NCBI GenBank assembly: GCA_018670085.1
Contig: JABHRS010000007.1
Location: forward strand, 1 to 64,000
DNA: 64,000 nucleotides
From: an archaeon
GTDB lineage: Archaea; Nanobdellota; Nanobdellia; Woesearchaeales; GW2011-AR9
Direction of reading: 5' to 3'
The position numbers and the translations under genes were made by a program. This document shows positions 23,559 to 59,151 of this stretch, one piece after another (position 1 is the first letter of the stretch; each line of letters opens with the position of its first letter). A model generated the notes under the pieces. It was not told the origin of the DNA. It searched no databases and saw nothing but the letters and a program-made list of their open reading frames with translations.

Positions 23559-23783
23559 CGGGCCTGGGGAGACTTTCAGGATTCAAGATTTAATCTATAT
23601 CTTGGATCTTTTGAACTCCCGGTCTACAGCTCTCTCGCAGTATCTCCGATAACTCTCTTAATGCCATAGTGGCAATATTTCAAGACTCGTCACTGATACT
23701 ATAGGAGGCTGTCGCCCTATATACCTTACAGCAAATTCGTTAAATTTTGTGAATTTGAAGTATCCAGGCTAGGCTACAGGCCC
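23559..23783 (-). tRNA. tRNA-Arg(CCT) with three inferred introns (D-loop about 43 nt, 37/38 about 70 nt, T-loop about 37 nt)
   Basis: Mature fold: GGGCCTG TA GCCT AGCCTGGATA GGGC G ACAGC CTCCTAA GCTGT AGACC GGGAG TTCAAGT CTCCC CAGGCCC G; all stems pair (T13-G22 wobble); poly-T follows the 3' end. Introns sum to 150 nt. Confidence 0.8.
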
Positions 23784-24071: not shown

Positions 24072-25379
24072 ATGGTAAAGACAGAATATATCACAGTACA
24101 AGACGCAATTACTAAGGGCAGTGGAGAAGTATCACTACATGGATGGGTTCACAGAGAACGTGGTTCAAAAAAACTTAAATTCATAGTTTTAAGAGATTCA
24201 AGTGAAATTATTCAATGTATCTTAAAGCGAGATGATTTTGATGAAAAAACTTGGGATAGTATTGATAAAATTCAAGTTGAAGCATCAGTTGAATTAACTG
24301 GAACAATTGCAAAAGATGAAAGAGCACCAACTGGCTATGAATTAAAGGTTAGCAAGTTCACATTAGTTGGAGAGAGTCATGAATTTCCAATTCAAAAAGA
24401 TGCAAGCAAAGAGCATTTAGCGGATCACCGTCACCTTCACTTAAGGTCACGTAAAATGACTGCAATTCTAAAAATCCGAAGTACTATCTTCGGTGCAATT
24501 GACCAATATTTTAGGGGAGTTGGATTTTATGAGTATCATTCACCAACTTTGCAAGCAGTTCAGTGTGAAGGAGGATCAGATTTATTTGATGTAGATTATT
24601 TTGGAAAAAAAGGAGTGTTCTTAGCACAAACTTGGCAATTGTACGCAGAACCTGCAGTATTTGCACTTGAAAAAATATATACTATTGCTCCAAGCTTTCG
24701 AGCAGAAAAATCAAAAACTTCAAGGCACTTAACAGAATATTGGCATGCTGAAATGGAAATGGCATGGTCAAATTTTGATGATATTATTGGGCATGGTGAG
24801 GCGCTTTTGAAACATGTGGTTGCAGCAGTATTAGCAAAACACAATAAGGAATTGGAAATTTTAGGTCGAGATCCTGCAAAACTCCAACCAACTGTAGATA
24901 AACCATTTGTTAGAATGACCTACACTGAAGCACTTAAAATCTTGAAGGAAAAATGTGATATGGAAATTGAATGGGGTAAAGATCTTAGAACAATTGAAGA
25001 AGATAAACTCTCTAAATTGTATGATGTACCAATAATTTGTACACATTACCCTAAGAAAGTAAAAGCATTTTACATGATGGAAGATCCTGATGATCCAAGA
25101 ACTGTACAAGGTGTTGATTTTATTGGAACCGAAGGATATGGAGAACTCATTGGTGGAAGTCACCGAGAACATGACATTGAAAAAGTAAAAGCAGCTTTGA
25201 TCGAAGACGGAGAAGATCCAAGTGAGTATGAATTTTATTTAGATACTCGTCGCTATGGGACTGTTCCACATGGTGGGTTTGGAATGGGTGTTGAGAGAAT
25301 CATCTCATGGATTTGTGGTTTAGAAACTATCAAAGATGCAATTCCATTTCCAAGAACAATGGAACGATATAAACCATAG
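24072..25379 (+). CDS. asnS: Asparaginyl-tRNA synthetase (class IIb)
   Basis: 'VSLHGWVHRERGSKKLKFIVLRDSSEIIQCILKRD', 'SPTLQAVQCEGGSDLFDVDYFGKKGVFLAQTWQLYAE', 'GFGMGVERIISWICGLETIKDAIPFPRT'. The Asn versus Asp call is by overall resemblance. Confidence 0.82.
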   Translation: MVKTEYITVQDAITKGSGEVSLHGWVHRERGSKKLKFIVLRDSSEIIQCILKRDDFDEKTWDSIDKIQVEASVELTGTIAKDERAPTGYELKVSKFTLVGESHEFPIQKDASKEHLADHRHLHLRSRKMTAILKIRSTIFGAIDQYFRGVGFYEYHSPTLQAVQCEGGSDLFDVDYFGKKGVFLAQTWQLYAEPAVFALEKIYTIAPSFRAEKSKTSRHLTEYWHAEMEMAWSNFDDIIGHGEALLKHVVAAVLAKHNKELEILGRDPAKLQPTVDKPFVRMTYTEALKILKEKCDMEIEWGKDLRTIEEDKLSKLYDVPIICTHYPKKVKAFYMMEDPDDPRTVQGVDFIGTEGYGELIGGSHREHDIEKVKAALIEDGEDPSEYEFYLDTRRYGTVPHGGFGMGVERIISWICGLETIKDAIPFPRTMERYKP

Positions 25380-57409: not shown

Positions 57410-57538
57410 TGGTCCCCCCTCCCGGATTCGAACCGGGGATCTTCCCGTAACTACTGAGCTTTTATCATCAAAGCCAAACTTTGGCATATCAAAAAGCTGT
57501 CTACAGCGGGATGTTCTAAACCGCTGAACTAAGGGGGG
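57410..57538 (-). tRNA. tRNA-Tyr(GTA), one intron (about 52 nt, 37/38), CCA encoded
   Basis: CCCCCCT TA GTTC AGCGGTTTA GAAC A TCCCG CTGTAG[intron]A CGGGA AGATC CCCGG TTCGAAT CCGGG AGGGGGG A CCA; C1-G72 as expected for archaeal Tyr. Confidence 0.9.
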
Positions 57539-58234: not shown

Positions 58235-59077
58235 ATGTTGTTGGATAGTTCTTCAATTGAAAAAAGTAGGTTTGATTTGCGTAAAGAGATTACTTTTCCT
58301 GAAGAAATGTCAGTTGAATTAGCTGAAATGATTGGGATTTTAGTTGGGGATGGTCATTTGTCTGTTTTGGAAAGAATAGATAATAAAGGGAGTAAATTTA
58401 CTCAATCAACAGTTTTTATTGCTGGAAATTGTAACGAACAGGATTATTTGGAGCATATCCAACGTCTTTTTTTGAAACTTTTCAATGTTCCTCTCACATA
58501 TAGAGAAGATAAAAGATCTGATGGAGTATTGCTTGTTTGTTATTCAAAAGGAATTGTGCAATATTTGAGTAAAGTATGTCAAGTTCCAGTTGGGAGGAAA
58601 TGTGCTATAGTAAAAGTACCTCAATTAATCTTTGATTCAAAAAGTGTGTTTCAAATGGCTTTTTTAAGAGGGTTGGCAGATACTGATTTTTCTCTTTGTT
58701 TTAAGAATAAAAGTAAAAAAGGTTATGCTTATCCTGTGATAAAGGGGAGTTTTCGAAGTAGATTTTTAATTCAGGATTTGGAAAGGTTATTCTCTTTTTT
58801 TGGGTTTATTCATTGTACTTGTTATGGATTAATAAGAAAAAATAATAAATTTGGATCTGATGTTGTGATGCATGCAATCTATCTCAATGGTGTGAAAAAT
58901 TTGGAACTATGGATTAACATTGTTGGTTTTTCTCAACCTAAATTTCAAAATAAAATCTTGGAATGGAGAGAAACAGGTCAATCCATACCTAAAAAGAAAA
59001 AAAAGAGCCCCGGGCGAGAGTTGAATTCGCGATGTATGGATTCTTCCACACATTCTCGCGACCTCTTGATTGCTTGA
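58235..59077 (+). CDS. LAGLIDADG homing endonuclease-like protein
   Basis: Two LAGLIDADG-like motifs 'LAEMIGILVGDGHLS' and 'MAFLRGLADTDFSL'. C-terminus 'SPGRELNSRCMDSSTHSRDLLIA' is read antisense through tRNA-Thr. ATG 58235; TTG 58172 possible. Confidence 0.8.
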   Translation: MLLDSSSIEKSRFDLRKEITFPEEMSVELAEMIGILVGDGHLSVLERIDNKGSKFTQSTVFIAGNCNEQDYLEHIQRLFLKLFNVPLTYREDKRSDGVLLVCYSKGIVQYLSKVCQVPVGRKCAIVKVPQLIFDSKSVFQMAFLRGLADTDFSLCFKNKSKKGYAYPVIKGSFRSRFLIQDLERLFSFFGFIHCTCYGLIRKNNKFGSDVVMHAIYLNGVKNLELWINIVGFSQPKFQNKILEWRETGQSIPKKKKKSPGRELNSRCMDSSTHSRDLLIA

Positions 59078-59151
59078 TATGCTTTTGTTTCTTTTGGAAA
59101 CATACCAGCAAGTGTACAAGTCAAGTGCTATAGCCACTAAGCCACCGGGGC
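59006..59151 (-). tRNA. tRNA-Thr(TGT) with two inferred introns (37/38 about 44 nt; T-arm 53/54 about 29 nt)
   Basis: GCCCCGG TG GCTT AGTGGCTA TAGC A CTTGA CTTGTA[i1]A TCAAG AGGTC GCGAG[i2]TTCAACT CTCGC CCGGGGC T, then poly-T. Confidence 0.83.

Follow-up and report, generated by a model that had tools for sequence, protein, structure and literature searches.

The window analyzed here, a stretch of 64,000 nucleotides, comes from an archaeal genome which belongs with the Woesearchaeota (DPANN): The earlier note on this DNA had described it as DPANN-like, and its closest named relatives are in fact Candidatus Woesearchaeota MAGs. The window contains the only tRNA-Arg(CCT) gene that we have found in this assembly. 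Very probably, its three introns, all with bulge-helix-bulge (BHB) motifs, are spliced to leave a normal tRNA, and the intron in the anticodon loop is a box C/D RNA which guides methylation of C1920 in 23S rRNA and belongs to an order-wide family. Once expressed, the transcript would fold into three BHB motifs, EndA would cleave them and RtcB would join the exons into a normal tRNA. In the D and T loops, the introns resemble ordinary BHB introns of recent gain or loss. The one in the anticodon loop would be freed by splicing and probably circularised; bound by proteins such as L7Ae, Nop5 and fibrillarin and assembled into an RNP, its guide would pair with 23S rRNA and direct 2'-O-methylation of C1920, in helix 69. 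Members of this family are found across the order, some within the tRNA-Arg(CCT) gene as this intron, others bounded by a BHB and outside the intron, in most cases a short way downstream of that tRNA.

The tRNA-Arg(CCT) gene and its introns

The precursor, of 225 nt, occupies positions 23559–23783 of the minus strand, to the base where the earlier note had placed it; features given below are on this strand unless otherwise stated. In the spliced-product reading, exon 1 (tRNA positions 1–19) lies at 23764–23783, exon 2 (20–37) at 23702–23720, with the anticodon CCT at 23705–23703, exon 3 (38–59) at 23610–23631 and exon 4 (60–73) at 23559–23572. Excision of 43, 70 and 37 nt, the intron lengths already proposed, leaves a 75 nt RNA, GGGCCTGTAGCCTAGCCTGGATAGGGCGACAGCCTCCTAAGCTGTAGACCGGGAGTTCAAATCTCCCCAGGCCCG, which ARAGORN calls as a canonical tRNA-Arg(cct), the identity previously assigned. 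The unspliced precursor gives zero ARAGORN calls, and the raw genomic locus is missed by both ARAGORN and Rfam RF00005. A weak, sub-threshold Rfam match on the raw locus, to the C/D snoRNA snoR26 (E 0.48), was a useful hint. The stems keep all of their 21 pairs, and the conserved tRNA positions are preserved as well. GGGCCUG pairs with CAGGCCC in the acceptor stem, the discriminator is G73, CCA is not encoded, and a T-run is found 3' of the gene. The intron helices described before (CAAATTC/GAATTTG, AGTATC/GATACT, TGCCA/TGGCA and CAAGAT/ATCTTG) are all present. No second tRNA-Arg(CCT) gene has been found in the 94% complete assembly; this includes the uninterrupted copy which, according to the earlier note, would speak against a triple-intron gene. 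The remaining arginine tRNAs in the assembly are TCT, GCG and TCG. The 5' exon is identical in a genome of the same genus (G002) and in the tRNA-Arg(TCT) of this genome.

BHB modelling had been suggested as a check, and the minimum-energy fold places a BHB at every junction. Intron 1 (D-loop, 19/20, 43 nt, 23721–23763) has bulges GG↓A and AU↓A around the helix GCCU/AGGU, where arrows mark the cuts. Intron 3 (T-loop, 59/60, 37 nt, 23573–23609) has bulges AA↓A and AG↓U around UUCA/UGAA. Intron 2 (anticodon loop, 37/38, 70 nt, 23632–23701) has a central helix of 3 bp, CUC/GAG, whose fourth pair is a C.C mismatch; its 5' bulge of 3 nt spans the end of exon 2 and its 3' bulge is AGA. The D and T junctions, with central helices of 4 bp and bulges of 3 nt, are thus 3-4-3 motifs, and the BHBs are near-strict overall. 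If each bulge is cut behind its second base, the canonical loops are obtained exactly. At the D-loop intron, the cut may shift by up to 3 nt because of a direct repeat, AUA, but the product stays the same. In the GTDB family, the central helix is 4/4 paired in 15 of 18 T-loop introns and fully paired in 10 of 19 D-loop introns, a few of which are relaxed; 3 of the 4 central pairs are present in 19 of 23 anticodon introns.

We have built a scanner which allows introns in the D, anticodon and T loops. The locus scores 19.95, against a best of 19.25 among 500 versions of the window randomised by a first-order Markov model; five chance matches with 21 pairs appear in these versions, all with lower scores, so the score by itself is only suggestive. 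The real proof lies in the relatives. The gene adjoins a class II Asp/Asn/Lys-type tRNA synthetase (24072–25379, plus strand), through which we have reached 60 related and 80 named genomes. In many relatives tRNA-Arg(CCT) is also found near this synthetase, and these homologues carry introns at the same positions with different sequences, so the triple-intron gene is real. Combining the synthetase neighborhood with a search for the 5'-exon pattern in 51 family genomes, we obtain 27 distinct tRNA-Arg(CCT) genes: 12 have three introns, 9 have two and 6 have one. These counts cover the genes which the scanner can parse; two others with different layouts (L223 and L243) have been read by eye and stand outside them. 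Three introns are common in the tRNA-Arg(CCT) of this GTDB family, a feature missed in the earlier note. Within the genus, G002 has all three introns, with different sequences, while G001 has only an anticodon intron, of 38 nt, and uninterrupted D and T loops. The D-loop intron is absent in the congener L062/L033.

Splicing enzymes

The earlier note proposed that EndA should be found and classified. A single EndA gene has been found in the genome (L030, 1474–2283, minus strand), which codes for a protein of 269 aa of the catalytic alpha type; a gene for RtcB is also present. About 100 aa at the N terminus of EndA form an extension rich in Lys and Ala, which varies among relatives. EndA is found above the cut-off in 59 of the 61 genomes compared, nearly all of them with only one.

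Splicing by a broad-specificity endonuclease was implied according to the earlier note. This kind of specificity has been tied to enzymes of the (alpha-beta)2 or epsilon2 type with special loops, while alpha4 enzymes are tied to strict BHBs (PMC6379350, PMC4033280). The closest PDB sequence is the catalytic subunit of the (alpha-beta)2 enzyme of Nanoarchaeum, followed by Methanopyrus and the alpha4 enzyme of M. jannaschii, which is compatible with a broad enzyme, as are the 3 bp centre of the anticodon BHBs and the few relaxed D introns of relatives. Nevertheless, we consider such an enzyme unlikely. Aligned with the M. jannaschii alpha4 sequence, the N-terminal region shows no insertion, and at the sequence level no sign of the crenarchaeal loop (CSL/ASL) is seen at this site. 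Neither a second, structural subunit nor a three-unit fusion has been found in this genome; in nearly all 61 genomes, one EndA of the catalytic alpha type stands above the cut-off. Weak second matches fall below it; the best of them, a beta candidate at G018:C2:624701, has been dropped, as no plausible subunit ORF coincides with it. One alpha-type EndA, no insertion and near-strict BHBs do not support the implied broad specificity. With D and T junctions which deviate little from a strict BHB, a narrow EndA could suffice.

A box C/D-like RNA in the anticodon intron

The starting clue was a resemblance, in five genomes, between long introns in the anticodon loop. To judge from its sequence, the intron in this loop is a conserved small RNA of box C/D type, which had escaped the earlier note. 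In the window, this RNA corresponds to 23640–23698 (covariance model R1, 61 bits). Its C box, UGACGA (23687–23692), and its D box, CGGA (23645–23648), are each one base away from the consensus sequences, UGAUGA and CUGA. The founding set contains 11 copies, ten intronic and one downstream, which were picked by location and not by guide. The kink-turn core of both boxes, UGANGA and CNGA, is invariant in all 11. The terminal stem joining the C and D boxes covaries, and so does the hairpin. In an alignment of 28 matches, 93.8% of the cells pair and covariation reaches a score of 0.522, while shuffled alignments give 0.219 (none of 500 shuffles is as high) and slid controls at most 0.133. This alignment was fitted to the structure, and the score leans towards it accordingly; sliding the partners breaks the pairing.

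The covariance model finds matches in 25 of 51 family genomes (E<=0.1), with few second matches, and, in an evenly drawn set of 247 genomes from the order, it finds them in 28 (E<=0.001). Rfam gives nothing at gathering thresholds in eight loci of this guide-RNA family: There is no Rfam family for it. In the window copy, a hairpin replaces the usual short C'/D' spacer and D' is degenerate; no second (D') guide can be recognised in this copy, nor does its D' side give a convincing rRNA match.

Predicted targets in 23S rRNA

The 13 nt directly before the D box, UUAAGAGAGUUAU (23649–23661), are a perfect complement of AUAACUCUCUUAA, in helix 69 of 23S rRNA, and the D+5 rule gives C1920 (E. coli numbering) as the predicted target nucleotide. 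The target has been read from the LSU of G001, of the same genus, because the assembly itself (G000) has no match to SSU or LSU rRNA, although it is rated 94% complete. None of 100 shuffled guides matches C1920 as well as the guide in the window.

With the register fixed at D+5, we have scored the guides of 48 copies against one LSU reference of 5480 positions. C1920 is among the top 5 positions for 26 copies and C2498 for 9, while neither is for the other 13. Guide conservation in the order-level copies is partly circular, because the search model includes the guide. In the founding set, eight of the 11 copies are aimed at one of these sites, four at each. The family is thus predicted to be aimed at C1920 or C2498. 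In bacteria, C2498 is a target of RlmM and a known 2'-O-methyl site. C1920 is the 2'-O-methyl target of TlyA in bacteria (PMC7317525). A pooled search for conserved pairing between the small RNA and rRNA gives nothing above the control, because it mixes the two guide types, not yet separated.

Some order-level copies contain another segment, CAUUUCGCUA, whose complement, UAGCGAAAUG, lies next to the C1920 site. Seven order-level copies (L295, L297, L299, L304 and L307–L309) have UUUCGCUA before the hairpin, complementary to UAGCGAAA of 23S rRNA, near the C1920 site; a double guide is possible in these copies. Pairing of the small RNA with tRNA-Arg itself has been dropped: The best offset, 5.18 against 3.84 in the control, is weak and inconsistent between genomes.

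The triple-intron tRNA might be functional and its anticodon intron just a structured RNA with a kink-turn, whose complementarity to rRNA is not used. Kink-turns of the L7Ae type are found in RNAs other than guides, too, and the deviations in both boxes, the lack of a clear D' guide and the 13 copies for which neither site is among the top 5 would fit such an intron. We find this quite improbable, given that eight founding copies, chosen regardless of guide, reach in the D+5 register two known sites of bacterial 2'-O-methylation, and that independent BHB-bounded copies exist. A decaying pseudogene, with a normal tRNA-Arg(CCT) in the about 6% missing from this MAG, is hardly credible, as the pairs and conserved positions of the tRNA are all intact and many orthologues keep the architecture, several of them in assemblies estimated to be 95–100% complete.

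Two locations of the same RNA

The guide RNA, as we read it, has two locations. In 13 genomes of the family it lies inside the anticodon intron of tRNA-Arg(CCT). Another 12 copies lie outside this intron, most of them 13–30 nt downstream of the same tRNA; one is found 431 nt behind it, and two (L245 and L249) have no tRNA call nearby. A further weak copy outside the intron (L269) is the second one in its genome, G006. An outer stem and a BHB of the CUC-AAG / GAG-UAN type frame 12 of the 13 outside copies, with 3 nt bulges around a helix of 3–4 bp (shuffle p 0–0.04 each). For example, L252 has AACAG-ACUC-AAG / GAGU-AUC-CUGUU. Beyond the family, eight more copies are found in the same intron and three behind tRNA-Arg(CCT).

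Both states are found within single genera. In g18, the copy is intronic in G019 and outside in G069; in g30, it is intronic in G031 and G068 and outside in G067. Such pairs make the origin and movement of tRNA introns and guide RNAs directly testable. We would give even chances to a more general proposal: One family of rRNA-guiding C/D RNAs moves repeatedly, also within genera, between two locations processed by EndA, the intron of tRNA-Arg(CCT) and a BHB-bounded gene outside, so that splicing of one tRNA also produces a guide for ribosome modification. The moves may take place through the excised circular RNA, re-inserted at BHB-like sites.

Comparison with known systems

Three-intron tRNAs are known in the Thermoproteales, such as tRNA-Glu(UUC) of Pyrobaculum calidifontis and tRNA-Pro(UGG) of P. 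islandicum (PMC4390854). As in our case, one tRNA has three BHB introns, two of them at non-canonical positions, and T-loop introns are common to tRNAs of different anticodon (here, in relatives). On the other hand, the present gene is found in DPANN, with a single alpha-type EndA detected, and its anticodon intron carries a putative guide RNA. Triple-intron tRNAs are thus placed in a large DPANN group with an apparently simple EndA, and this calls into question whether a broad-specificity enzyme is required for genes of this kind.

The anticodon-loop intron of tRNA-Trp in Haloferax and Pyrococcus is also a box C/D guide (PMC7994747, PMC7714728), but it targets its own tRNA (C34 and U39), while the intron in the window is predicted to act on 23S rRNA. 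The guide RNA would give this tRNA intron a likely reason to exist. The comparable intron of Haloferax is dispensable according to work cited in PMC7714728, which counts against our preferred reading. In Nanoarchaeum equitans, also in DPANN, a C/D-like RNA is found in the intron of tRNA-Met and another directly behind a tRNA, as a dicistronic tRNA-Val/sRNA8 (PMC3491384). These are different RNAs in each place, whereas here both places, next to the same tRNA, are taken by one family, whose downstream form is bounded by a BHB of its own. TlyA and RlmM are bacterial 2'-O-methyltransferases for the same predicted nucleotides, C1920 and C2498, but they are protein enzymes which work without guide RNA. 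In the open-access literature, beyond which other papers may exist, we have found no report of an rRNA-directed C/D RNA in a tRNA-Arg intron, or of one RNA alternating between intronic and downstream locations. As to Woesearchaeota and tRNA introns, one paper in the same literature mentions both terms, and we have found no other report.

Other tRNAs with introns

The window contains a second multi-intron tRNA, tRNA-Thr(TGT) (59006–59151), with a 54 nt anticodon intron and an apparent intron of ~29 nt at the border of the T stem and loop (53/54); there is also a Thr(TGT) gene with no intron (L018). The tRNA-Tyr(GTA) at 57413–57538, missed at the Rfam gathering threshold, has a 52 nt intron which contains UGAUGA and may hold a kink-turn. 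Elsewhere in the genome, an initiator-like tRNA-Met(CAT) (L025, G000:C32:8601-8706) has a T-arm intron of ~31 nt near 53/54, and the scanner finds D-loop and anticodon introns in tRNA-Glu(TTC) (L028, region of G000:C4:79338).

Among relatives, the T-loop introns of L195/L214, L198, L215, L233 and L236 share 76–93% identity over the matched stretches. Similar T-loop introns span tRNA-Arg genes with anticodons CCT, TCT and TCG, once within a single genome (G028), which looks like intron transposition. Those of 80–95 nt are so well conserved that they could be another small RNA. Finally, several tRNA-Arg(TCT) genes of relatives (L178, L183, L185, L198, L199 and L203) are interrupted within the anticodon stem, by an intron on the 5' side of the anticodon.
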